The position numbers were made by a program, and so were the translations under genes. Of a stretch of DNA of 35,641 bases, positions 1 to 34,010 are shown in pieces (the first letter of the stretch is position 1; each line of letters opens with the position of its first letter). The stretch comes from a virus: the IMG/VR virus record IMGVR_UViG_3300011116_000019, positions 1 to 35,641 of that record, one strand, 5' to 3'. The notes beneath the pieces were generated by a model that was not told the DNA's origin, made no database searches, and saw only the letters and a program-made list of their open reading frames with translations.

Positions 1-2411
1 AAGACAAGTGGCTGCCTGTAGCCGAGACTTTCAAAGCCAAGTGCCTTGAATACAAGTTTATTGTTGACCCCGCTGTACCAGCAGATGCAGCGCGGGTGTT
101 GCGGATTCCGGGGACAAAGAACTTCAAAGACAACCCACCGCATGATGTTGTCCTGATGCACTTGTCTCAGCCCATGACGTTCGATGACTTTGCCCAGCGC
201 ATGGGGCCGTTGATAGACGTGAAGAAGCCTTATGCCCCCAAAGAATTAGACGACTTCACAAAAGCTGTTATCGGCAATAAGCAATCGCGGTTTCGCACCA
301 TCCTGAAGAAGACCGCCGATGGCTTTGGGTGTGAGCAGATGCGATTGATTGTTGAAGATCAACCCAATATCGAAGAACCATTGTGGCGGGCGGGGTTGTC
401 CGTCGCCCAGCATTGTGTAGACCGGGACAAAGCGATTCACCTGATATCCAAGAACCACCCGAAGTACGACGCAGCTGCAACGGAACGCAAAGCCAATCAG
501 ATCAAAGGCCCATACACCTGCGACACATTCGATTCGTTTGCGCCGGGCCTATGCGACAAGTGTATTCACCGAGGCAAGATCAAGTCCCCCATTGTGCTTG
601 GCCATGAGATCGCCAAATCGGAAGTTGGGGAAGTTATTGCGTACCAGCCCACAAGCAGCGACGCTACGCCCGCTGAATTTGTAGTACCGAAGTTACCAAA
701 TCGGTATTTTCGTGGAAAAAACGGTGGTATCTACAAACACATGAAAGAAGACAACGAAGAAGGCGATGGCCCTTCTGTTGCCCTTGTGTATGAGTACGAC
801 CTGTTCGTCACAAAACGGATGTATGACCCCGCACTGGGCGAGACGATCTTGATCCGTCGGGTGCTTCCGAGGGACGGGGCCAAAGAGTTTTCTGTGCCGT
901 TGGTAGATGCGCTGAGTAAGGATGAGTTGAGAAAAACCGTTTCTTTTCACGGTGTAATTGCGGGCGTGGCCCAGATGGCCTTGATTTTGGATTACCTGAT
1001 GCAATGTGCAAAAGAACTACAAATAACACAAGAGGTGGAGATGATGAGATTGCAATTTGGTTGGGCAGACGATGACGAAAAGTTCATATTGGGGAACAGG
1101 GAGATCGGGGCGAGCTATGTTAAATACAGCCCCCCGTCCAAGGCTACACGGGAAATTGCCCACGCCCTGCGCCCGGTTGGGTCGCTGGAAGAGTGGAAGG
1201 ACATCATCAATGTCTACGATATGCCGAACTTTGAACCGCATGCCTTCGCCGTATTCTCTGCGTTCGGCGCACCACTTATCAAATTCATGGGTATCAAAGG
1301 CGGCATCATCAACCTTATAAATAATAAATCTGGTACGGGTAAGTCAACCATACTTCAGGTTATGAACAGCGTGTGGGGACACCCAGATGAACTGATGCTG
1401 CAATGGAAAGATACCTTGAACGTCAAGCTCCATCGCATGGCAGTCATGTGCAATCTACCACTGGGGGTAGATGAAATCACGAAGATGAGTGGGGACGACT
1501 TCTCCGATTTGGCCTACAGCGTGACGCAAGGCGCACCGCGCCGCCGTATGAAAGCAGCCTCCAATGAGGAGCGTGAGTCACAAGGATTCTGGGCGACCAT
1601 GATGGTGGCTACCTCCAACGCCAGTATGACCGACAAGCTGGAGTCCTTGAAGTCAACATCAGAAGGCGAGTTGATGCGTCTGATGCAGTACAAGATTGAT
1701 CCCACCAACAACCTTGACAAGGCCACAGCCAAGCATATCTTTGGCCGGTTGCACAGCAACTACGGTCTGGCTGGCCTGCCGTACGCCCAGTACCTTGTGC
1801 AGAATCTTGAGGAAGTTGTGGAGACCGCGCTGAAAGTACAGGCCCGGTTTGATCAGGCTGTAAAGATAGACACCCGGGAACGATTTTGGTCAGGCATGGC
1901 GGGCGCAAATCTGACCGGCGGGCTGATTGCCCACAAGCTGGGCCTGCACAACATAAACCATAAACGGGTATTTGACTGGGCGGTGGCCGAGATTTCTGAC
2001 ATGCAGTCGGCCACACGGTTGTCGTTCAACGACTACGCCACCATCGTTGGCGAGTTCCTGCTCAAGCACAACCTGAACATTCTGGTGGTCAACAAGTACA
2101 GCAGTTCCAAGTCAGGTATTGCCGCCACCCCGCTGTTGTTGCCCCGTGGTGCGTTGGTTGTCCGGTACGAGCCAGATACACGACGTATATACATAATCCG
2201 CCAGTCGCTCAAGGATTTCTGCGTACTCAAGCAGATCACCTTTACCGACCTGCTGACCGCCCTAAACAAGACGGGCGCGTTCATCTCCGAGGTTCGTACC
2301 CGATTGGATATCGGTACAGACATCAGCGCCCCACCGGTGGTGGCGTTGGAGTTTGATTCCGACCTGTTGGGCGTTGCACCCAGTGTTGACCTGCAAGGCA
2401 ATGAGGATTGA
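1..2411 (+). CDS. Phage primase-helicase (DUF927/D5-like ATPase), 5'-truncated
   Basis: The reading frame is open to the left edge (codons begin at base 3), so the true start lies outside the window; the GTG at 96 is internal. The visible protein is about 802 residues. Near its start is DAARVLRIPGTKN, a signature of archaeo-eukaryotic-type primase domains in phage primase-helicases. A Cys-rich stretch (YTC...GLCDKC) follows, then GKIKSPIVLG. The P-loop NKSGTGKST is at 1323-1349, an acidic Walker B-like GVDEI near 1464-1478, and an ATSN sensor-like motif near 1608-1622. This resembles DUF927/D5-type helicase modules. The family primes and unwinds DNA in phage replication. It is the only recognisable replication gene here and runs opposite to the virion genes. 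The ATPase assignment is firm; the primase half is inferred from the motif at the edge. Confidence 0.82.
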   Translation, partial: DKWLPVAETFKAKCLEYKFIVDPAVPADAARVLRIPGTKNFKDNPPHDVVLMHLSQPMTFDDFAQRMGPLIDVKKPYAPKELDDFTKAVIGNKQSRFRTILKKTADGFGCEQMRLIVEDQPNIEEPLWRAGLSVAQHCVDRDKAIHLISKNHPKYDAAATERKANQIKGPYTCDTFDSFAPGLCDKCIHRGKIKSPIVLGHEIAKSEVGEVIAYQPTSSDATPAEFVVPKLPNRYFRGKNGGIYKHMKEDNEEGDGPSVALVYEYDLFVTKRMYDPALGETILIRRVLPRDGAKEFSVPLVDALSKDELRKTVSFHGVIAGVAQMALILDYLMQCAKELQITQEVEMMRLQFGWADDDEKFILGNREIGASYVKYSPPSKATREIAHALRPVGSLEEWKDIINVYDMPNFEPHAFAVFSAFGAPLIKFMGIKGGIINLINNKSGTGKSTILQVMNSVWGHPDELMLQWKDTLNVKLHRMAVMCNLPLGVDEITKMSGDDFSDLAYSVTQGAPRRRMKAASNEERESQGFWATMMVATSNASMTDKLESLKSTSEGELMRLMQYKIDPTNNLDKATAKHIFGRLHSNYGLAGLPYAQYLVQNLEEVVETALKVQARFDQAVKIDTRERFWSGMAGANLTGGLIAHKLGLHNINHKRVFDWAVAEISDMQSATRLSFNDYATIVGEFLLKHNLNILVVNKYSSSKSGIAATPLLLPRGALVVRYEPDTRRIYIIRQSLKDFCVLKQITFTDLLTALNKTGAFISEVRTRLDIGTDISAPPVVALEFDSDLLGVAPSVDLQGNED

Positions 2412-2643: not shown

Positions 2644-2673
2644 CGCCCCGCCGTAAAAAGCGGGGCGTTTTTT
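2644..2673 (+). terminator. Intrinsic terminator ending the + strand replication transcript
   Basis: A perfect 8-bp stem CGCCCCGC / GCGGGGCG (2644-2651 and 2660-2667) encloses an 8-base loop and is followed by six T residues (2668-2673). The T-run lies downstream on the + strand only, so it terminates rightward transcription. It sits at the convergence point and its T-run overlaps the stop codon (2672-2674) of the giant - strand gene. Confidence 0.9.
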
Positions 2674-5600
2674 ATTGCGCAAACTTCGCGAATGGGTTTT
2701 CTTCAGCGGAGCTTTTACTTTCTTTCTCCGTTATTTTCTGGATGTAAGTGTCCGTAAATAAGTACCGCAGCTTGGGGTCAACATACAAACCATGATCAGT
2801 CTGCGCTGACTTTTCGAACTTGCCTTCTATAGACTTGAAGAGGGTGTCCACGTCTATTGCGAGCGTAGGATACTTGGCGTTGAATTTTATTATTTTCTCG
2901 ATCGCCGCCTGTGTTCCCTTTTCATCGTTGGTCATGATAGTCAACCCAAAAATGTTTAACACATTCTGGCGTTTTTTAAGTATCTCCTGCTCCTGCCCTT
3001 TTACCTTGATGTTTCGGAACTGAATCTCTGCAAGGTCAGCGGGTCGTATACCCAATCCCTGCATCATCAACTCAAAAGGAGTGAACTCTTTCTGCATGAC
3101 GTCACCCTGTAAGGTCAACGCCCCTTCTTTTGAATACCTATAAGCCACCATAGGCTGTTTGGCAAACCCGGGCAGAATTGTCTCTATTGCGCGATCTGCG
3201 TGACCCTTGTTGTACAAGTCATATGCGCGGCCAAAACCTACCCCTATGCCAGCCAATGGGCCAAGTATCCCAACAAATATAGATTCAACCCAACTTTCAG
3301 CATCTTGATTTTGACGTCCGTCTCTGAACCACATACCGTCTAGTTTCAGGCGACTATGCAAATCAACGCCAGCGGCGTTACCTATACCGCGTGACAGCAT
3401 GGTACCCATGTTTTCGCCGAACGTATTGACCGCCCAGTTTGCAAACTCAAGTTCAAAATCAAACGGTGGTTCGTCATCATCGTCGCCAAAAGCCGCACAA
3501 GCCTCAACAATAAAAGCCACAGTTGAAAAGCCCCAGAGACCAGTGACTCCAGAGAAGATAGCTGCCATGCCCATCGTGCCGACAAAGCGGGCGCGGGCTT
3601 CACGTTTTTCTTCCTCGGGCAAGTTACCAAACGAGTTCCAAGCGTTGCGGGCCAAGAACCAAGTCATTTGTTGCGGGAACTGTTTGAATTGGAAGATGAC
3701 TCGCGACACGGCGCTTTGTAAGAAACGAGGCTTGTTGGTAGAGGAATAGTCAAACATGGCCCGTTGGGTCAAGTCTTTGGCCTCAGCAATAGATTCCGCA
3801 AACGCCTGTTGTTTGTTGGGGTAGTTCGCCCGCTTTTCCATAGCTGATCTGAAAGCAGACATGGCCATGATTTCACGGTTGAACCGCTCAGCGTGGTGAA
3901 AAGCGTAAGCGACAACCTGCATGGCCCGGTTGGGTATGCTGGAGTATTCAGACGTTGGGTTTGCAGCCAAACCAGATTGGTCATAAGCTGCGGTTATGTC
4001 AATGATGCCATCGGCAACAAAACGGTTATATGCCGCTTTATCTATTGCGGGGATACTTTTTGATCTTTCAAGCGACGGAGACAACAGCCGCGAATCTATT
4101 ACACGCCCGCCAGATTCAATTCCAAAACCAGTAGCCATGATCTCGGCCATAGTTTTGCTCATGTTGTATAGAACACGGCCAGTGGCTCTTGTGTAACTCA
4201 TGCCGGGGTTTGCACGAACTTGTTGCCCAATCAGCGTTGGTGCGCCAATCATCACGCCGCCCATCACGTTGACAAGCGCGGAGCCGATCGAAGTTAGATA
4301 GTAAACAAACCCTATATTTGAAAAGTATGTTGTCCACTTACCAGTATCTTCTGGATTGAGTATTGCGCCAAGTCGGTTATCAATCTCCCGAACATAACTG
4401 CGGAGTTCATCGTTCTCGGCGGTCAGTGCTTCATCGTATTTTGCACCGGGGGTGAAGCGGCCCTTGATCTGTGACTGGGCCGCATCCAACTGAGAGAACA
4501 TCTCTGGGGAATACTCCAATCGTGCCATCTGATACGCCATGCTGAACGACGACGACGTAAAGCTACGCAGTGCATCTTCGGAGTAGCCAGCAATACTCTT
4601 GCGGTGAATGAAGGCGTTACGGATACTGCGATCTGGCTGGTTGGCCAAATACGTTTGATACAGGTTGTCTTTTAATTCAGTTTTACGTTCGTTAGCTTCA
4701 GCTGGCGTGAGACCCTTTATGTCCATACTGTCAATAGCAGCAAACGAGTTTTTCAAAAACTCAGACTGCCGAGCGTGCAAATCCATTTGCTTCTGGTAAT
4801 CATCACCTATGTTTGTACCAATAGTTTTTTCTAAAGCATCACGGGCAGCTTGATTTGGTTCTTGGTCTAAGCGAGCTTGCAAGTGCGCTTCTCTGGCGGC
4901 TTGGGACTCGAACATGTAGTACTCACGACTGGCCCCTTTGCCAATCTGATACCAGAATCGACCAAAACGCATCAACGGAAAGTAAGGCCCCGCTCGTTTA
5001 CCTTTTTCAAACTCATTACGAATCTCTGTAATGGACGCTTCAGACACACCCATCTGACGCATGAATATGATGCGCTGGTTCATGAGGCGCTTGTAGTTAC
5101 TATACCGGCGTTCGTAGAAATCACGCACCTCTCTGTATATGGTGCGGGCTTCTGGGTTTAACGCTCTCCAGTCGTTCATTAACTTTGCGTTATTGGCCCG
5201 TTGGGCAGACGTGGCTTTGTCTGGATCAACCTCCAAAATTGTGGCGCTGTGCATCACAACACCAAGCTGCCTAGACATGTCAGGATTAGCAGCTTGCAGG
5301 CGTTCCCACTTACGGGATATGTCACCAGACTCTTTAAGTATTTGTGACTTGCGGGCCAGAAACTTCTCTGTCACGTTAATAAAGTTACCAATTTGCGGGA
5401 TACGGCCAGCAACCAAATCATTGATTTGGCGTAACGTCAATATACCCAGATACGCGCCGCGTGCAGCCGAATCCATGCTGCGTATCTCACGCATCTTATT
5501 TTTTGTCCATGTGCTGGCCATCATCCAGCGTTTGATTGTGGACGGTTGATTTGGCATACCTTTGGGTACAACCTTGGCTCTGCCCGGCCTTTGGGTGGCC

Positions 5601-8600
5601 ATAGCTTTTGGCCCAGTGGTTACTTGCATGCCCTCCAAGGACATTGTGCCCGCCATCATTGCATCAGCAGCAAACATGACTTCAACCATCACGTTACTTG
5701 GTGCGCCGGGCTTTACGTTGAACAGTTTTCTTACCGCGTCAGTGAAGCGGTTGTACAAAGAGAACGGTGAGGCCTTGTACCGGATAGAACGCAACAGTGC
5801 TTGGAACTCTGGGTTTGTGAGCGACTCAGACAAGAACTCATGTATGTCTTGCAAGCCGTACACGGTAGACAAGTCTATGCCCTTCTGCGAGAACATGTTT
5901 CTAGAATACTCGTACAACTCGTTGAGTCGTTCATAACCTTGGCGCTGTATACCAACAAGTCGATCTTTGTTATCTATCAAATGAGATGCGGCTGCGTGCA
6001 AAGTTTCGTGCAGCAACAGGTGATTTGTGAGATGGCCAGCACCTTGGCGCATAACAATGGTGTCGGTTGCCGGGTCGTACTTACCATTCCACGCAAATTG
6101 TTCATTAACCAACTGCGCCACGCTATCGAGCAACATCTGGTTGGATTCAGTCCCGCCGTTTTGCCCCAGCGTATCTTGCATAGTCTCAACAGCGAAAACC
6201 AAGTTACGCAACTTGCCAGATTGCAGCCCATCAATAATGGTTGCCTGTTGTTCTTGCGGATAGAGCGCTACAACTAAATCACGTAGCGCACGCAGACGTT
6301 CGTCTAGCGACTCTTTGACTTGCGGGTCGTTTGACAACGACTCCATAGTGTCGGGGTCAATTAAACGTGTCTCAGCTGTAAAACCAGTATCCAGTATGCG
6401 TTGGGCCAGTTCAGCGTAGTACTTGTTGTTCTTTGTTTGCGCAACCAGTTCAAGAGCTTCACGGGTCTTACCTTCAATCAACAGGCGGCGAATAGCCGGA
6501 TGCACTTCAGTGAGCATCTCAACAGTGGGCAGATTTTTTGTGCTGACTTCTGTGAATGGTTCTTGGGTTTCTTCACCTTCGCCCGCTTCGGTCTCCGCCT
6601 CTTCCTGCATTTTGGAAAGGCGTTCTTTGGCTGGCTTTTTTCTCCGGGGTGCTTTAGGCAGCTTGGCCCCTTGCTCTTCGGCTTTCTTACGGTTTTTCTC
6701 TGCCGCAATATCTAACAATTCGTTGTAAACAGTTATTGCGTTTTCAAACTTTGCGGCTTCTGCGGCATTCTGTTTGTTCTCCGCCACCAGTTCATTAAGC
6801 AAGTCAACGGTGTTAGCGTCAAGGTTAGCCTCAATCCATGCGCGGAAATCCTGCGCGTATTTACCACCCTCTTTGTAAAACGTAGAACCAGCGCCGTAAT
6901 GTTTTGGATCAATCTCAAAATATGCAAGATCAAAGGCCAAGTCTCTTAGCGCGTCACCAAATGTGGTGCGGTTTAGGTTTGTTAAGTATGTGATGGCAGC
7001 TTGCGCTTGTGGAGAAATTTTCCCCGTCATCTGCTTAAGGATCAAAGCAGCCGCACGCAGTTTGTTGTCGTTAATATCACGCACCACTTCTTTGGTGGCC
7101 TGATTTGGGCGTCGAGGTTTAACACCGATCGGTGTCTCAAACGCTTGTGTCACTGTGGATGTGGTGGTAATAGTCTCTTGGTACGGCAGTTTTGTACCGG
7201 TAACTTGAGATGGGCGCATTTTGCTTGTTCGTATATTAGCAAGTGGCCCTTCCCCTGTAGCCATTATTTGGTCTACATAAGATTGAACCTGTGCGCTGAA
7301 CTCATCCATGCCGCGACGGGTGGTGAGGTCTGGTAGCCCTGCTTTTTGCAGCAATGCTGATTGTGTTTCTGGAGTTGCGCCTTGAAGCGCACTCAATAAT
7401 TTGTCTAACTGATCTTGTCCTCCTACACGGCGGGCAAGATAGTTGAGCATCTGCTGTGAACCAGCGCTGGTGGTTTCGCCCGGCTGAGCAATATCAAACT
7501 CCAGCATGGTGTCAGCGGCGGTATTCTTTGAATTGCCGTGGCGTTCTTGCTCCGCAGGAGAATCAGATGCAGACTGAATGGCATCAAAGAAGCTTTTGAT
7601 CTTGCCACCTTCTTCTGTCTGTACAACGTGTTCTGTGTCTACGAGCGGGGCTTTTTCAAATCTTTCTCTAGGTGTGACACCCTGACGAACAGTTTCAGTC
7701 GGCTGGGTTTCCTTTATTTTTTCTCCAGTAGGGACTCTAACCATGTAATCCGCACGGTCTTCAAATCCATTACGTGCATACCATTCTTTTAATTGCTCTT
7801 GTGTTAATCCACCAAGCGTGGCATCTGGACTTGCAGCTGGGACAAGAACCAACGTTTTACCGTTTTTGTCGGCCCAGTTTGTAATACTATTTAAAAGTTT
7901 TGTGCCAGCGCCTTTATTCCTTTCTGACACATCCATACCAGTAATAAAAGTGGCCCCAGCAAGGTCACTTGATAAATTGTTGTCTTCATCAAGAGTTTTA
8001 AACCCAGCAGATGCAATTGGTGGTTCACCTTTTTCAGGAGATTTTATAAACGCGCCAGTTTCGCTTACTATTGGAGCCGCTCTGCGCTCGCGCATAGCAT
8101 CAGCGTTCTCCTGTTGAATTTTTTCGTTGTTAAACAAATCACCTTGCATAGCACGGGGCTGGCCAACGCCTCTGCGCAGCATATCAATCGCCTGATCAAT
8201 CTCAGCATTTGATCGTTGCGAAAAGTTTTGAATGATGGAGTCCCGGCTTTTGAGGGCTTGGCCAGACGACATGCCAGCGGGGCGCATGCTGATGATTGTT
8301 GCATCATCAAACCCGCCAGAGTCAATCTTTTCTTGGATGCGGGCACGGTTGTCTTCCAACTCTGCGATTGCCCCGTCTACGCTTTGCCCAGACAGCGCCA
8401 TAGCATTTTTCATGCGGCGTGCAGCGCCTTGGAACACACCAAACAAGTTGCCCTGCATCCCGCGTGGTTGGCCAACATTTGGTTCAAGTCTGGCCAAAGC
8501 TTTTTCCCCGTTAAACACAGGGTTCTTGAGTTGAGCAGCCAAACCTTTATTGCGAATGAAGCCCATGTTGGAATCAACAACTTCAGCTAAGTCCTTCAGA

Positions 8601-10174
8601 ATTAGCGCACGCTGATTCATGCCCGCTTGATCTATGCGGCCTTGAGGAAGAGAGTTGTACTCATCCCGCAACTGCGTGTACTGCCGTACAAAATCGCCAT
8701 AGGCTTCAAGAGATTGCGCAGGTGCAGCGGCGGCAGGTGTAGCAGGTGCGCTTGGAGCTGCTGTAGTTGTAGCGCCAGTATCTACATCTTCAAACAAACC
8801 GGGCGGTTCGGTTGATGATGGCAAGGTTTGATCAGCATCACCATATTTTGCAGATACGGTACTTCTTCCCGCACTGACATTTGCTGCATCCATCGCATCT
8901 GCTGCCCGCTGCGCGTAGAGACCAACTTGAGATTGTTCTCCAGCGGGTTGACCGCCTTCTTGGTCTGCAAACAAACCGGCAGGTTCTTCTATGCCTTGAG
9001 TAAGGGCGTCAAGAATTGTTTGGCGTTCTTGCTGCGTAGTGTTTGGGTCTTTAAATTTTTCCGCAAGAGAAGTTTTCAACCCACGTACACCGCCTACTGG
9101 AGAGCCACCCAATGCACCAAGAATAAGATTGGCAGCTGAGTCTTCACCAATTTCTTTATTTTTGGCGACTCGATTGATGGCGATGTCAGCCGCAACGCCT
9201 TCGGCGGTTTCTTGTACGCCTTCTTCTACCCCAGAAACAGTTGCACCTGCTGCTGTGCGCCCCAAAATAGATTTACCAGCCACCTTCTTCAGTAGGTCAT
9301 CGAACGCGCCGGTAACAAGTTGCCCAGTAAAACGGTCGCCAAATGTAGCAACCATCCCCTGCATGATTGCACCTGTTTCCGCCGCTTTGCGTGTGGCTAA
9401 ATCTTTGGCCTCTGCCTGCCCAACACCTTGTTTTATCAGCGAAGCATAGAACGGGCTGTTCTTCATCAAGTCTTCATGACCCATCTCACCAATGAATTCA
9501 CTTGCTTTTGTAGCCGCTTCATCTGCGGCCATAGCGCCGCCCGCAACACCACCGGTGGTTGGACTTTTTGTAATTATTGCGGTGGCAATTACGGGGGCCA
9601 TTGACCCAAATACACTAGCCGCTTGCATAGCGTAACCACGCACAGTTGGGTTTTTACCGAAGTCTATTTCACCTTTAAATATGTTTCCAGTTATTTGTGC
9701 TTCGGCAACAGCTTTTTTAGATTGTTCTGATACGCTGTCTTCAATACTTTTTTGAGCTTGTTTACCAAGGTCTCGTAAATACGCAGAACCGGGAATTTCT
9801 GGTACTTTTGCAATGGTACGTTCCAAAGCCAAAGCATCCTTGTCCCGTTGATCTTTACCCCGGATCAACTCGTCAACTTTTTGAGTGAGAAGTTTTCCAA
9901 AGAGTAAAGGTTTTGGTTCTTGGAGGTTAACTTCACCTTCCGCTGCTTTACGTACCGCGCCCTTTGCGCCTTCTTCGAGACCTTTCGGTATGCTGGCTAC
10001 ACCAGAAGTGGCAGACCCAAGTACGTACTTAGAAAAGTCCGCCGCCTTAGTCCAGATACTGTCATCTTCTTCTGGTTTTTGAGGCGCAGCAGTTTCTTCC
10101 TGCGGGCGGACAAACTGAGCAAACGGGTTTTGCTCTACCTCTGGCTGAGCAAATTTTGCAAAAGGGTTTGCCAT
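2672..10174 (-). CDS. Giant polyvalent virion protein (GNAT + HExxH peptidase + PLxRFG/LPD region)
   Basis: A 2500-residue protein. The N-terminus carries NPFAKFAQ and NPFAQFVR, and NPFAKFAQ recurs as the last residues. Residues about 160-360 are glycine/alanine-rich and hydrophobic. Two QGxLF motifs lie at 574-578 and 677-681. Residues about 700-810 look like a GNAT acetyltransferase, with the acetyl-CoA loop RNKGAG at 752-757. HETLH at 1389-1393 with a downstream HEFLSESLTN is typical of a gluzincin-like zinc peptidase. PLMRFG at 1733-1738 is the PLxRFG signature. Hydrophobic segments lie near 1950-1985 and 2197-2230, and the C-terminal about 300 residues resemble the LPD38-type region of polyvalent proteins. 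Such proteins are packaged in virions and thought to be ejected into the host. No frameshift is seen. It begins 2 bases after the stop of the upstream gene; its ribosome site is weak (GGGAC). Confidence 0.85.
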   Translation of the reverse strand: MANPFAKFAQPEVEQNPFAQFVRPQEETAAPQKPEEDDSIWTKAADFSKYVLGSATSGVASIPKGLEEGAKGAVRKAAEGEVNLQEPKPLLFGKLLTQKVDELIRGKDQRDKDALALERTIAKVPEIPGSAYLRDLGKQAQKSIEDSVSEQSKKAVAEAQITGNIFKGEIDFGKNPTVRGYAMQAASVFGSMAPVIATAIITKSPTTGGVAGGAMAADEAATKASEFIGEMGHEDLMKNSPFYASLIKQGVGQAEAKDLATRKAAETGAIMQGMVATFGDRFTGQLVTGAFDDLLKKVAGKSILGRTAAGATVSGVEEGVQETAEGVAADIAINRVAKNKEIGEDSAANLILGALGGSPVGGVRGLKTSLAEKFKDPNTTQQERQTILDALTQGIEEPAGLFADQEGGQPAGEQSQVGLYAQRAADAMDAANVSAGRSTVSAKYGDADQTLPSSTEPPGLFEDVDTGATTTAAPSAPATPAAAAPAQSLEAYGDFVRQYTQLRDEYNSLPQGRIDQAGMNQRALILKDLAEVVDSNMGFIRNKGLAAQLKNPVFNGEKALARLEPNVGQPRGMQGNLFGVFQGAARRMKNAMALSGQSVDGAIAELEDNRARIQEKIDSGGFDDATIISMRPAGMSSGQALKSRDSIIQNFSQRSNAEIDQAIDMLRRGVGQPRAMQGDLFNNEKIQQENADAMRERRAAPIVSETGAFIKSPEKGEPPIASAGFKTLDEDNNLSSDLAGATFITGMDVSERNKGAGTKLLNSITNWADKNGKTLVLVPAASPDATLGGLTQEQLKEWYARNGFEDRADYMVRVPTGEKIKETQPTETVRQGVTPRERFEKAPLVDTEHVVQTEEGGKIKSFFDAIQSASDSPAEQERHGNSKNTAADTMLEFDIAQPGETTSAGSQQMLNYLARRVGGQDQLDKLLSALQGATPETQSALLQKAGLPDLTTRRGMDEFSAQVQSYVDQIMATGEGPLANIRTSKMRPSQVTGTKLPYQETITTTSTVTQAFETPIGVKPRRPNQATKEVVRDINDNKLRAAALILKQMTGKISPQAQAAITYLTNLNRTTFGDALRDLAFDLAYFEIDPKHYGAGSTFYKEGGKYAQDFRAWIEANLDANTVDLLNELVAENKQNAAEAAKFENAITVYNELLDIAAEKNRKKAEEQGAKLPKAPRRKKPAKERLSKMQEEAETEAGEGEETQEPFTEVSTKNLPTVEMLTEVHPAIRRLLIEGKTREALELVAQTKNNKYYAELAQRILDTGFTAETRLIDPDTMESLSNDPQVKESLDERLRALRDLVVALYPQEQQATIIDGLQSGKLRNLVFAVETMQDTLGQNGGTESNQMLLDSVAQLVNEQFAWNGKYDPATDTIVMRQGAGHLTNHLLLHETLHAAASHLIDNKDRLVGIQRQGYERLNELYEYSRNMFSQKGIDLSTVYGLQDIHEFLSESLTNPEFQALLRSIRYKASPFSLYNRFTDAVRKLFNVKPGAPSNVMVEVMFAADAMMAGTMSLEGMQVTTGPKAMATQRPGRAKVVPKGMPNQPSTIKRWMMASTWTKNKMREIRSMDSAARGAYLGILTLRQINDLVAGRIPQIGNFINVTEKFLARKSQILKESGDISRKWERLQAANPDMSRQLGVVMHSATILEVDPDKATSAQRANNAKLMNDWRALNPEARTIYREVRDFYERRYSNYKRLMNQRIIFMRQMGVSEASITEIRNEFEKGKRAGPYFPLMRFGRFWYQIGKGASREYYMFESQAAREAHLQARLDQEPNQAARDALEKTIGTNIGDDYQKQMDLHARQSEFLKNSFAAIDSMDIKGLTPAEANERKTELKDNLYQTYLANQPDRSIRNAFIHRKSIAGYSEDALRSFTSSSFSMAYQMARLEYSPEMFSQLDAAQSQIKGRFTPGAKYDEALTAENDELRSYVREIDNRLGAILNPEDTGKWTTYFSNIGFVYYLTSIGSALVNVMGGVMIGAPTLIGQQVRANPGMSYTRATGRVLYNMSKTMAEIMATGFGIESGGRVIDSRLLSPSLERSKSIPAIDKAAYNRFVADGIIDITAAYDQSGLAANPTSEYSSIPNRAMQVVAYAFHHAERFNREIMAMSAFRSAMEKRANYPNKQQAFAESIAEAKDLTQRAMFDYSSTNKPRFLQSAVSRVIFQFKQFPQQMTWFLARNAWNSFGNLPEEEKREARARFVGTMGMAAIFSGVTGLWGFSTVAFIVEACAAFGDDDDEPPFDFELEFANWAVNTFGENMGTMLSRGIGNAAGVDLHSRLKLDGMWFRDGRQNQDAESWVESIFVGILGPLAGIGVGFGRAYDLYNKGHADRAIETILPGFAKQPMVAYRYSKEGALTLQGDVMQKEFTPFELMMQGLGIRPADLAEIQFRNIKVKGQEQEILKKRQNVLNIFGLTIMTNDEKGTQAAIEKIIKFNAKYPTLAIDVDTLFKSIEGKFEKSAQTDHGLYVDPKLRYLFTDTYIQKITEKESKSSAEENPFAKFAQ

Positions 10175-30257: not shown

Positions 30258-31190
30258 TTACCTCCCAATGTAGGTTTGGCGGGGCACAAGCCGCAGGGCA
30301 GCTTTCTCATGATCTTCGTAGGCGGCAAGCTCCCAAGCTTCGTCGTACTGCTGTTTCAAGAATCCAAGACGTTCTGCTCCGGGCGGAATCTTTCCAGCAA
30401 TGTAGTACGACAGGCCAGCCGCCATGCAAGGGATGAAGCGAAACGGCACGTCCATGATGTTGACACCGCCACCTGCGTCTTGGGTTCGTCGCAAGCGCCA
30501 ATACACCAACTGATACTGCTGGGCATTGTCTGGGGTTGGCCAAACGGTGACTGCTGGGACTTGCTGCCAATAGACTGTTGTGCCATTTGCATGGCTTGCC
30601 GCCGTGGTGTTTTGCTGGCCACGGAAGCAGTTGTACAAAGTGTTGCCTGAGATATAGCTGTAATTGATGATCTCGTTGTCGATCTTTACAAACCCGGCGG
30701 CGGGAAGTCCAACCACAGAGTCCAAAGTGACCTGCGTTGCGTCTATAGCCATTCCACCTACTTGGCTGATTGCCAGTCCTGTGGGCGAAGTTTGGCCGTT
30801 GTACCGCTGAATCCAAATCTGAATGGGTCTGGCTTGGGTGATCTTGTTGGGGATAGTGGCGTAGGTTGAGACGCTGATACGTGTGATAGTGAGATCAGCT
30901 TGAGTTGAAGCCACGTTTGCGCCTGTGCGGATGACATGCTCCAGCAGGTCAATGGTGTCGTCAGGTAATGGGTAAGTGTTTTGCCCCTGCACCAAGTCAA
31001 TCGTACCCTGCTCAATTGTCCACAGATTGATGCCACGATTGGCCCAATCTGCAAACATGATGTTTAAACTGCGTCTGGCTGTACGTAGGTCATACCCGGT
31101 GCGCAACTCGCCACCGGCGCGTTCAAATGCCTCCTCGACCAACTCAGTAAGGTCTAGGTTAAAGCTGACTGCGCCAGAGGTATTTGCCAT
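30258..31190 (-). CDS. Head-to-tail adaptor-like protein with inserted RG-H-G module
   Basis: A 310-residue protein. The N-terminus (DLTELVEEAFERAGGELRTG, RTARRSLNIMFADWANRGIN) matches the P22 gp4-like adaptor pattern. Residues about 165-205 (VKIDNEIINYSYISG, LYNCFRGQQNTTAASHANGT) are an inserted module also present in the nozzle-like protein. The C-terminal helices (RFIPCMAAGLSYYIAGKIPP, GFLKQQYDEAWELAAYEDHE) complete an adaptor-like fold. It would bind the portal ring. It starts at a TAATG junction after the 77-residue gene. Confidence 0.55.
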   Translation of the reverse strand: MANTSGAVSFNLDLTELVEEAFERAGGELRTGYDLRTARRSLNIMFADWANRGINLWTIEQGTIDLVQGQNTYPLPDDTIDLLEHVIRTGANVASTQADLTITRISVSTYATIPNKITQARPIQIWIQRYNGQTSPTGLAISQVGGMAIDATQVTLDSVVGLPAAGFVKIDNEIINYSYISGNTLYNCFRGQQNTTAASHANGTTVYWQQVPAVTVWPTPDNAQQYQLVYWRLRRTQDAGGGVNIMDVPFRFIPCMAAGLSYYIAGKIPPGAERLGFLKQQYDEAWELAAYEDHEKAALRLVPRQTYIGR

Positions 31191-31423
31191 TATCTAAACC
31201 CTGCTGTTTTCTTTGCCACTTTGGGTGGCTGCTTTACGAATTGTTTTCCGGCTTTTTTGCCCGCACGTTTTGCCCGCGTTGTCGCAGCGTACTCAGCAGG
31301 GCTGAGAGCTTTGATTGCAGCCTCTGGAAGATATCTTTCGCCTGTGTCAGAAGAGCGTTTGCCACTTTTGGTTCTCCACTTTTGGGCAGTCCAATCTTTG
31401 AGGGATTGCTGCGGCGCTTTCAA
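31190..31423 (-). CDS. Small basic protein, DUF5872-like, TTG start
   Basis: A 77-residue basic protein. The in-frame region upstream to 31489 overlaps the neighbouring gene, and the best start is a TTG at 31423, which overlaps that gene's stop as TTGA. The protein then begins MKAPQQSLKDWTAQKWRTKS, followed by RYLPEAAIKALSPAEYAATT and KQFVKQPPKVAKKTAGFR. This matches a recurrent small phage family (DUF5872-like) of lysine-rich proteins. A G-rich ribosome site precedes it. It could bind DNA or sit in the virion. The start codon is uncertain. Confidence 0.65.
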   Translation of the reverse strand: MKAPQQSLKDWTAQKWRTKSGKRSSDTGERYLPEAAIKALSPAEYAATTRAKRAGKKAGKQFVKQPPKVAKKTAGFR

Positions 31424-31698
31424 TCTCTGTACCCCCCGCCAGCAGCCTTGTACTTCTTGGCTACCAACTGTGCTTTCCTCGCTGACCACTGACCTGCGCC
31501 TGTGCCTTGGGTTGCTGCGGCTTTTACCTGAGCCACGATCCGCTTACGAAGACCGGGTTTGGTGTAGTTACCAGCGGCGTTGACTTTGCCACCTTCCGCA
31601 TACATTGCCACATCCTGTGGCTTGTCCTTGCGGCGAATGACTTTTTTCCCCGGCATCTTTGACGGGTTAATCGCTCCCATGCCGCGAGAGGCCATCAT
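31420..31698 (-). CDS. Small basic glycine-rich protein, function unknown
   Basis: A 92-residue protein if it starts at the ATG at 31698 (a second ATG is at 31695); the ORF continues to 31740 inside the upstream gene, which I reject. It reads MMASRGMGAINPSKMPGKKV, IRRKDKPQDVAMYAEGGKVN and a basic end (GTGAGQWSARKAQLVAKKYK). The MYAEGGKV segment resembles similar glycine motifs in neighbouring virion proteins. No known domain. The choice between the two adjacent ATG codons is uncertain. Confidence 0.65.
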   Translation of the reverse strand: MMASRGMGAINPSKMPGKKVIRRKDKPQDVAMYAEGGKVNAAGNYTKPGLRKRIVAQVKAAATQGTGAGQWSARKAQLVAKKYKAAGGGYRD

Positions 31699-31700
31699 GT

Positions 31701-31919
31701 TTACACCATCTTTCCGCGAGTCTTGCCGCGCTGTGCGCATCCATCCGCACGGCTGGAGGCAGTGCCACCACCAGCCTTTTTTACGGGCTTGCCATCAACA
31801 CGAATGTCTTGACCGGGTTGCTCAGGCATGCCCGGCTCACCCTTTTTGAACTTGCGTCCAGCAGATGCGCCGTCAATGTCTTTTGGTGCTTCCTTGTTCT
31901 TTTCCAGATCATCAAACAT
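31701..31919 (-). CDS. Small protein ending in the ADG-GKT C-terminal tag
   Basis: A 72-residue hydrophilic, probably disordered protein with GAGGTG four bases before its ATG. It reads MFDDLEKNKEAPKDIDGASA, then RVDGKPVKKAGGG and ends SSRADGCAQRGKTRGKMV. That last segment recurs in two other proteins of this cluster (31928-32911 and 33687-34010). No catalytic or membrane motif. The short body makes the C-terminal tag its main conserved part. Confidence 0.7.
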   Translation of the reverse strand: MFDDLEKNKEAPKDIDGASAGRKFKKGEPGMPEQPGQDIRVDGKPVKKAGGGTASSRADGCAQRGKTRGKMV

Positions 31920-31927
31920 GATTCACC

Positions 31928-32911
31928 TCAATACATTTTGCAACGGGTTTTGCCGCGAGATGCAATCCCATCAGCGCGTTTGGAAGCAGAAGAAACTTTG
32001 GAGGTCATACCGCCGGAAGCCATCTTCTTGACCATACCACCGCGACGCATTGCGGAGCCTGTGCTGAGCGCATCCTCGTTAAATTCTCTTGGTGTAGATT
32101 TGGGCGGGGGATTTTTGGCTTCGCGTGCGCGACGTTCTGCGGGGGTTTCAAAATTCCTTACGTAGTCAGCGACGCTGCTACCAACAGATTTAAGCTTGTC
32201 GTATGCCGCTTGACGATTTGCTGCTGCTTGTTCAGGAGTTGGAACTCTGCTGCTACCGCTGCTGACTGCGGGTTTTGCGCTTGTGGCGGGGCCTTGGGTA
32301 GCTGTTTTTACAGCTGTTTTTGCTGCATCTGATACTGCATTTTTAACAGTACTTGATTTTGTATCTGTTTGTTTTGCTCCGCCCATAACTGCGGGGCGAG
32401 CGCCACGAGACGTACCAGCTTCCAAATTACTTTTTTCTGGGGCAAGTTTCACACGCTTGTCTGATGGCTCAGATACAAGCTTGCTAGGTTTTGGCGGCTC
32501 ATTTTTTGGTTTTGGTGGCTCATTTTTTGGTTCTGATTTGGAGCTTTTTGGCGGCTCTGGTTTGTTGGGTTTGTCGGATTTGTTATAGCCCGGGCCAAGC
32601 GTAGTTGTGCCGCTTGCGCCAGCTTGATTAAGGCCTTTACCGTAGCCTTCATTGCTGTAGTTTTCGTCGGTAATGTTATATTTTTCAGCGGATTTATCTG
32701 ATCTAGCAATAGTTTCTGCCGGAGTTTCTAATCTATTCTCAGCAGATTTATTCCCAGATACAGCATCTCTTTGGGCTTTTGTACGAGCATCAGACGCATC
32801 TTTTTCTGCCGCAGTTGCAGCAGGGCCTTCTTTGTCTTTGTCTTTGGACATCATATACGCCGCACCCGCAAGTGCAGCAAGCCCAGCTAATCTTCCAGCG
32901 TTTTTTGCCAT
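31928..32911 (-). CDS. Disordered Lys/Pro/Ser-rich virion-region protein with ADG-GKT tag
   Basis: A 327-residue protein with AAGGAG before its ATG. The N-terminus is a short hydrophobic helix (AGRLAGLAALAGAAYMMS). The rest is low complexity, with a Pro/Lys/Glu segment (PKNEPPKPKNEPPKPSK) and many Ser/Thr/Lys. Near the end are RRGGMVKKMASGGM and the tag SKRADGIASRGKTRCKMY at the exact C-terminus. No fold is predicted. It is probably an internal or surface virion protein; the tag links it to two neighbours. Low-complexity composition precludes firm naming. Confidence 0.65.
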   Translation of the reverse strand: MAKNAGRLAGLAALAGAAYMMSKDKDKEGPAATAAEKDASDARTKAQRDAVSGNKSAENRLETPAETIARSDKSAEKYNITDENYSNEGYGKGLNQAGASGTTTLGPGYNKSDKPNKPEPPKSSKSEPKNEPPKPKNEPPKPSKLVSEPSDKRVKLAPEKSNLEAGTSRGARPAVMGGAKQTDTKSSTVKNAVSDAAKTAVKTATQGPATSAKPAVSSGSSRVPTPEQAAANRQAAYDKLKSVGSSVADYVRNFETPAERRAREAKNPPPKSTPREFNEDALSTGSAMRRGGMVKKMASGGMTSKVSSASKRADGIASRGKTRCKMY

Positions 32912-32921
32912 GATTTACTCC

Positions 32922-33503
32922 TTAGCAGTAGGCTTTGCCGCCCTTTTTCATACCCAGCGGTTTAGAACTGGACATTTTGACCATAGTACCTTTAGAGATA
33001 CCGCTTTTTTGAACAGCGTGTTCGCCCTTACCTTTGCTTCCACCGGAAGGAACAGCGCCCATTTTGGCCTTGGTGATACCGCCATGAGCCATCTTGCCCT
33101 TGCCATCTGCGGCAAAGTCGGGAACCATCTTCCCGCCCTTGTTGACCATTGTCATGCCGCCGCCAGCCATTTTCTTCATGCCAGCTTCTTTCATTTCATG
33201 CTTGACCATAGACTTGGGTGCGCCTTTGGCTTTCATAAAGCTGATTTCTTTTTTCATCATTCCCTTGGATTCTTTCATTTCGCCACCTTTTTTAAAGAGT
33301 TCCTGTTTACCTTGATTGGTTTTAGGATTGTTGACTACTTGCCGGTCAGTACGAGTTTTTGACCCACTCCCAAACTTCATACCTTTGCTGGCTTCGCTGA
33401 AGTCTTTACCCACGGATTGTGGGACTCCGGCTTTCTTCGCAAATGCTGGATTGTGTGCCACAGCATCCATGAATTTCTTTTGTTTAAGACTTGTTGCTGG
33501 CAT
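32922..33503 (-). CDS. Basic Gly/Met/Lys-rich protein with DUF3008-like N-terminus
   Basis: A 193-residue protein starting at the ATG at 33503, which gives the N-terminus MPATSLKQKKFMDAVAHNPA, resembling DUF3008 (MPAxSKxQQxxM). An earlier ATG at 33521 would extend further into the upstream gene. FAKKAGVPQSVGKDFSEASK follows. The rest is strongly basic with repeated Gly-Gly-Met and Lys clusters (EAGMKKMAGGGMTMVNKGG, ADGKGKMAHGGITKAKMG) and ends GMKKGGKAYC. It is likely disordered. DUF3008 has no known function. Probable minor virion protein. Confidence 0.65.
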   Translation of the reverse strand: MPATSLKQKKFMDAVAHNPAFAKKAGVPQSVGKDFSEASKGMKFGSGSKTRTDRQVVNNPKTNQGKQELFKKGGEMKESKGMMKKEISFMKAKGAPKSMVKHEMKEAGMKKMAGGGMTMVNKGGKMVPDFAADGKGKMAHGGITKAKMGAVPSGGSKGKGEHAVQKSGISKGTMVKMSSSKPLGMKKGGKAYC

Positions 33504-33690
33504 TGTCGTCTTTCTTACCATTTACAAATCGTTGAACCGTGTCTGTTTCATAAATGCGGATACACATCCATACGATAGTCAACAAAGAACCAATCAAAGC
33601 TACTGTTGGCGTGAGCCACCCCATAACGCTAGTTGCGGCTACTGCCACAGCTGCGCCATCTGTAGTTACCTTTATTTCATGCGTGTTCAT
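33484..33690 (-). CDS. Small membrane protein, candidate holin-like
   Basis: A 68-residue protein starting at the ATG at 33690, which overlaps the upstream stop as ATGA; AAGG lies about nine bases upstream. A short polar N-terminus (MNTHEIKVTTDGAAVAVAAT) is followed by a membrane helix (PTVALIGSLLTIVWMCIRIY, about 29-48) and a charged tail (VNGKKDDNASNKS). It is separate from the main lysis cassette by about 14 kb and lies among head genes. It could be a second holin, an antiholin or a membrane protein for entry; sequence alone cannot separate these. Confidence 0.6.
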   Translation of the reverse strand: MNTHEIKVTTDGAAVAVAATSVMGWLTPTVALIGSLLTIVWMCIRIYETDTVQRFVNGKKDDNASNKS

Positions 33691-34010
33691 ACAAACTTGC
33701 CTTTCGTCTTGCCTTTGGTGGCACAGCCATCCGCTTTGGTGACGTAGCCACCATCTGCGCAGTTCCATGCACGCAAGCTTTTGTTAATCCTCGAATCCGG
33801 ATCGTTGGCGGTCTTGGCGCTCGTAAGCTTCGCTTTCATGCCTTTCATTCGGGCGCAGAAAGAGTCGCGACGTTTGCCGCCCTCTGGCTGGGGACGCTTC
33901 AACCCGGGTTTCCCCGGATTTGCTGCGTTGTAGGAAGCCCGCCCTTTGGCGTTCAGCCCGCCTTCGGGATTCTTCCCTTCCGCTCTTTGCCATGCGGGGG
34001 ACTTAGCCAT
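33687..34010 (-). CDS. DUF6321-like phage protein with ADG-GKT C-terminal tag
   Basis: A 107-residue protein starting at the ATG at 34010; the upstream TTG at 34031 is inside another gene. It reads MAKSPAWQRAEGKNPEGGLN, AKGRASYNAANPGKPGLKRP and KRRDSFCARMKGMKAKLTSA, the pattern of DUF6321, a family I associate with phage virions. The end is GYVTKADGCATKGKTKGKFV, the tag shared with two neighbours. It is basic, without membrane segments. The start overlaps the upstream gene by 8 bases. It may be a virion or DNA-associated protein; the family has no known function. Confidence 0.75.
   Translation of the reverse strand: MAKSPAWQRAEGKNPEGGLNAKGRASYNAANPGKPGLKRPQPEGGKRRDSFCARMKGMKAKLTSAKTANDPDSRINKSLRAWNCADGGYVTKADGCATKGKTKGKFV

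Follow-up and report, generated by a model that had tools for sequence, protein, structure and literature searches.

Encapsulin cargo-loading peptides are short, usually C-terminal, follow a flexible linker, and bring unrelated proteins to one shell. The capsid targeting sequence (CTS) of phage T4 is N-terminal and is removed by the prohead protease. This sequence is all that the diverse internal proteins of T4 have in common, and in T-even phages the bodies of the proteins that carry it differ between related phages (PMC3012670). In the Dar system of phage P1, several internal head proteins are co-ejected with DNA (PMC12810830).

The locus considered here lies in a virus record from IMG/VR, IMGVR_UViG_3300011116_000019 (positions 1 to 35,641, 35,641 bases in all, hereinafter the window), where three proteins end in the same short peptide, the tag (Table 1). 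As in the case of the T-even CTS, one short conserved terminal peptide is found on diverse small proteins, including diverse proteins of one phage. Unlike the CTS, the tag is C-terminal (only one small family is tagged at the N-terminus), belongs to podoviruses and has an unrelated sequence, and a virion location is suggested here by the genes. As in encapsulin cargo, the tag is short, occupies the exact C-terminus, is preceded by a GG/S-rich segment and is carried by unrelated proteins; however, encapsulins are cellular compartments with few enzyme cargos, whereas binding of the tag to a shell is what we infer. The likeness to the Dar system is that the window encodes a DarB-like protein of 2500 aa, which is probably an injected internal protein. 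In contrast, no common C-terminal tag is apparent in the Dar set in the available part of that source, and the tagged proteins of the window are small, with no Dar family found in PHROG scans. A text search of the open-access literature found no description of the tag. It resembles known targeting peptides in kind; what is new is its sequence, its place at the C-terminus, the phage lineage and the scale. Its function we infer below.

Tagged genes of the window and their neighbours

The original prediction, that three proteins of the window share a C-terminal tag, agrees with the ORFs, all three on the minus strand, and their ends, and the excess of the tag is far beyond chance. When the tag is written as a degenerate DNA pattern, the whole 35,641-base record matches it at three places only, which are these three ORFs, and the reversed control of the pattern has no matches in the same record. 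All three genes and their tags are kept in the closest relative, locus L208 (capsid 95%), where the counterpart of the 72-aa protein is also 72 aa long and tagged, and that of the 327-aa protein is shorter (224 aa). No family match for these two proteins was obtained in Pfam or PHROG scans. The body of the 72-aa protein had been described as acidic, which does not hold, as it is roughly neutral (about +1 ahead of the tag, by hand count). The ATG of the next gene lies 2 nt past the stop of this protein.

Table 1. Coordinates of the tagged genes, the genes around them and other large genes in the window
Feature	Position	Strand	Evidence	Remark
DUF927 primase/helicase-like protein, large	96-2411	+		sole long plus-strand gene
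2500-aa protein with LPD39 polyvalent-protein domain	2672-10174	-	strong similarity to DarB-like antirestriction family	
Adaptor, SU10_adaptor family	30258..31190	-	Pfam	downstream border of the tag island
p106, N-terminal MMASRGMGAINPSKMP, phrog_17747 C-terminal module	31420..31698	-	PHROG and locus comparison	
72-aa tagged protein	31701-31919	-	ORF check	C-terminus SSRADGCAQRGKTRGKMV / RADGCAQRGKTRGKMV
Tag of the 72-aa protein with stop	31701..31751	-	pattern match	
327-aa low-complexity tagged protein	31928-32911	-	ORF check	C-terminus SKRADGIASRGKTRCKMY / RADGIASRGKTRCKMY
Tag of the 327-aa protein with stop	31928..31978	-	pattern match	RADGIASRGKTRCKMY
199-aa protein, phrog_16759 N-terminus, untagged	32922..33521	-	PHROG and ORF ends	ends MKKGGKAYC
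107-aa DUF6321 tagged protein	33687-34010	-	ORF and Pfam	ATG 34010; C-terminus TKADGCATKGKTKGKFV / KADGCATKGKTKGKFV
Tagged extension of 22-23 residues that follows the DUF6321 domain, with stop	33687..33758	-	DUF6321 comparison	ADGGYVTKADGCATKGKTKGKFV
Major capsid protein (MCP), C-terminal 208 aa	35013..35639	-		truncated at the end of the contig; borders the tag island on its upstream side

The 107-aa protein, taken for DUF6321-like in the original prediction, is a true member of DUF6321 (PF19846; Pfam E 8e-19, residues 12-82, 68.5 bits vs the cut-off of 28.5). This family provides a natural experiment. Among 122 DUF6321 proteins, 86 have no tag and finish precisely with the last Cys of the domain (..LRAWNC), 35 continue into a discrete extension of 22-23 residues whose end is the tag or its RGGGCExRGKTKGKMV variant, and in the remaining one the tail is shorter and untagged. 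Most members hence end at the domain, the tagged extension being present only in part of the lineage studied here, and, since the extension is all-or-none, the tag is gained or lost as a unit. About 12 changes are required on the DUF6321 tree, which is poorly resolved. The AlphaFold model of the 107-aa protein (mean pLDDT 70.5, pTM 0.38) has a disordered end (pLDDT 37) and no match in PDB; no paper naming DUF6321 was found by text search of the open-access literature.

Many homologues of the 199-aa protein carry the tag 7-9 residues ahead of an MKKGGKAYC-like end, and this family shows a second recurrent C-terminal ending, of the GG-x-x-C type. In the p106 family (the window and about 60 loci), the N-terminal segment M.[AP]SRGMGxIxPSKMP... 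stays constant, and the C-terminal module attached to it is one of at least four different small basic ones (phrog_17747, phrog_16028, phrog_34011, and a module with no family), an arrangement that is the mirror image of the C-terminal tag. p106 is present in 65 of 66 tagged vs 1 of 10 untagged capsid-lineage loci, this comparison being confounded by phylogeny.

Consensus, placement and carrier lineage of the tag

The originally proposed consensus, [RK]ADGxAx[RK]GKT[RK]xKxx, has been corrected to [ST]-A-S-[KSR]-R-[AG]-D-G-[IC]-A-x-[RK]-G-[KR]-T-[RK]-G-[KR]-hydrophobic-[VCIYL]. The A-D-G-x-A segment, Gly in position -8 and Thr in position -6 are near-invariant, and the last two residues are hydrophobic. 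Cys in position -12 and Cys in position -1 occur together in only 2 of 392 distinct tagged ORFs (p 3e-17), a mutual exclusion that linked subtypes by descent explain as well as packing does.

The forward pattern of the tag was found in at least 120 stretches of IMG/VR, and the same pattern in reversed residue order in none. Among the matches listed, exactly 15 residues separate Ala of ADG from the stop in 115 of 162 stop-followed matches; most remaining ones lie 22-27 residues from the stop, ahead of an end of the MxxGGKxC kind, and a few tags are N-terminal (family MAFTKSADGIAxxGKTKGKNLGDSGP). A C-terminal 19-mer profile scores above 5 bits at 352 ORF ends vs 0 reversed ends (about 28,000 ORFs); this profile was trained on these same tags, so an independent scan matters. 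In the latter, which used a different core (GRT instead of GKT) and did not assume the terminus, the exact C-terminus was found in 109 of 123 matches, 105 of these 109 being on contigs with lineage markers. The reversed controls, the 19-mer profile and the GRT-variant scan rule out the chance origin of the tag. Only four stretches match among bacterial and archaeal genomes (257 Gb); three of them are contigs with lineage genes, and one is chance-like.

The exact C-terminus thus dominates. Absence of the tag from relatives or its random internal occurrence were to count against the original prediction, and this check did not refute it. Two families break the C-terminal rule, with a tag that is either internal, 7-9 residues short of the end, or at the N-terminus, so the signal is not strictly read from the C-terminus.

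The letters of the Walker A (P-loop) motif, GxxxxGK[ST], match many tags, yet an ATPase of this type was rejected, as about 22% of distinct tags (a share partly set by sampling) have Arg in place of the Walker A Lys and the protein stops five residues past Thr, leaving no room for the fold. The tag profile has no matches among solved structures; tblastn with tag peptides against cultured phages gave one unconvincing match only, and neither the 327-aa protein nor the N-terminally tagged family had any tblastn match.

Among the matches listed in the unbiased scan, 118 of 120 tag loci have MCP, adaptor or SU10-type markers, and the remaining two, both of them short, contain the 199-aa family. The tag is locked to one lineage, the mostly uncultivated, short-tailed podoviruses of the Pam1/Pag-Yong1 type. 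The structural module of this type, in which a GroES-like gene and MCP are followed by small genes and the adaptor, is represented in the window by MCP homology and the SU10-type adaptor, the window ending before the region upstream of MCP. The window MCP is 72% identical to the MCP of Planktothrix phage Pag-Yong1 and 45-65% identical to capsids of pelagiphages HTVC023P and HTVC027P, phage DSL-LC04, roseophages CRP-901/902 and others, whose records use Pam1-type names (the annotators' choice); it has no matches among solved structures. Most of the nearest cultured relatives are without the tag, which is therefore not essential to this capsid type. Among the cultured phages examined, a variant was found only in Pag-Yong1, by scanning the syntenic region: ..IGRDGCAKRGRTKGRFI is the exact end of UMO75986.1, a 308-aa low-complexity protein syntenic with the 327-aa protein of the window. 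MinM2 and Pra-JY27 show this same capsid match, and a variant may be present in them as well.

All 289 tags at loci with a capsid gene are on the strand of this gene, 0-6 kb downstream, there are none upstream of MCP in 80 loci with upstream sequence, and in 87 of 100 loci with 4 kb of downstream sequence a tag is found within 5 kb, these counts being not fully independent, since some loci overlap on the same contig. The capsid-to-adaptor interval usually contains 1-4 tagged ORFs. In 18 long records (48-87 kb) there are 0-5 tags each, in one island, and the single off-strand match elsewhere is chance-like.

The content of the island changes fast while its flanks stay constant. The fraction of tagged genes with a homologue in the other island is 27% at capsids 95-100% identical, 13% at 90-95% and about 8% below, all these figures being lower bounds, given the sensitivity of BLAST on short low-complexity proteins. 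In one island of IMG/VR record G006 (locus L185, positions 40254-41018, minus strand), three tags are identical over 35 nt, which is a case of recent duplication or gene conversion.

Tagged proteins and candidate functions of the tag

After masking of the tags, 431 tag-bearing ORFs form 136 body clusters, 115 distinct cluster examples having an exact C-terminal tag; the number of clusters is approximate, since low complexity swells the largest one and the starts of some ORFs were set mechanically. The bodies in these approximately 115-136 groups are small (the median length of tagged proteins is 126 aa), disordered-looking, poor in hydrophobic residues and otherwise unrelated. The N-terminal module of the commonest tagged family also occurs in GAP32_317, whose annotation is virion structural protein. 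Between unrelated bodies, tag identity is 69%, as high as between many orthologues. Tag similarity within a genome is 0.716 vs 0.646 in permuted data (sd 0.009), as expected for a shared partner, and could also stem from duplication or gene conversion.

The idea of a common short C-terminal signal has strong support from its specificity, exact terminal position, unrelated bodies, unit gain and loss in DUF6321, conservation at the peptide level, and confinement to one island next to the capsid gene. A constant terminal peptide, interchangeable passengers and an island of late genes, hypervariable and next to the capsid gene, together suggest a recruitment tag of 15-17 residues that is recognised in trans and whose most likely role is to bring variable passengers into the head, a reading whose probability we put at just under one half (about 0.48). 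The tag is borne by small basic low-complexity passengers encoded in the hypervariable island after the capsid gene, and, according to this reading, one conserved component of the phage lineage would recognise it. This shared partner would likely be in or on the assembling head (the inner capsid surface, scaffold, portal, or packaged DNA-protein core), so that any passenger a phage owns would enter the virion and might reach the next cell with it. The functions proposed originally, packaging, capsid binding and processing, are plausible, given gene position, hypervariability of the bodies and the analogy with known systems. A bolder version, a universal and lineage-wide C-terminal code in which any small protein with RADGxAxRGKTRGK would be virion cargo, is more tentative.

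The main rival to head loading is a nucleic-acid-binding tail, with basic residues alternating with Gly and Thr (R-G-K-T-R-G-K), by which basic passengers would enter the head or the replicating DNA through DNA binding. We consider it unlikely, and it is compatible with a head location. The bodies are indeed basic (K/R 20% vs D/E 13%), the charge in the alternating basic positions -9, -7, -5 and -3 of the tag is nearly invariant, and the island neighbours are small basic modules; still, charge alone leaves the A-D-G-x-A segment, Gly -8, Thr -6, the hydrophobic last two residues and the exact C-terminus unexplained. Some of these features, namely the exact C-terminus with its basic-hydrophobic end, would suit a signal that directs passengers during infection, rather than in the virion, to a host target or to a degradation or remodelling machine (e.g. 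a C-terminal signal of the ClpX type). Moreover, small, disordered, quickly evolving proteins are typical of host-takeover factors. Such a role is nevertheless improbable, as all copies are among late structural genes near MCP and the adaptor, with none elsewhere in the long records bar one chance match, internal and N-terminal versions exist, and the upstream A-D-G-x-A core is conserved as strongly as the end of the tag.

Selection could also act on DNA, the tag being a cassette that provides homology for swapping passenger genes, or a ribosome-binding or translational-coupling element for the next gene. Fast turnover of the island would fit the former. As for the latter, the next ATG is between -7 and +8 nt of the stop in 305 of 392 tags, and Gly -4 is coded by the Shine-Dalgarno-like GGR in 189 of 290 tags with a near next start vs 19 of 74 otherwise (p 1e-9). 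The last codons of the tag thus probably double as a ribosome site for the next gene, as the codon usage suggests, which would explain part of the GGR bias and help to explain the frequent final Val (the GTA-TGA overlap). This role does not account for the A-D-G-x-A-x-R-G-K-T core, which is too far upstream for a ribosome site. Furthermore, most of the tag has a codon entropy similar to that of the bodies, identity over 39 nt occurs in only 3 of 155 within-locus tag pairs, and the peptide is kept in internal and N-terminal copies. Since synonymous codons vary, selection acts on the peptide, and conservation at the DNA level is ruled out as the main cause. The cassette is somewhat more improbable than a host-directed signal. 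The least probable explanation, and a very improbable one, is common descent without function, the passengers being diverged duplicates of one ancestral gene and the tag its slowest-evolving remnant. Position-specific codon preferences (GGY in Gly -8, GGR in Gly -4) and linked residue variants suggest common ancestry of the tags themselves, the probable ribosome site explaining part of the GGR bias. Slow evolution itself requires selection on the peptide. The conserved DUF6321 domain has either the whole extension or none, which rules out a gene-family remnant as the sole cause.

Whatever its mechanism, the conservation of one peptide across more than 100 unrelated proteins of a single lineage is a strong constraint and calls for a partner. 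If the tag loads heads, it would provide a sequence rule to spot virion-packaged effectors in thousands of unannotated genomes of uncultivated phages, as well as a ready short tag for placing chosen proteins in phage particles in the laboratory. The universal code, if true, would give podoviruses a modular and evolvable way of delivering proteins that is independent of the T4 CTS.
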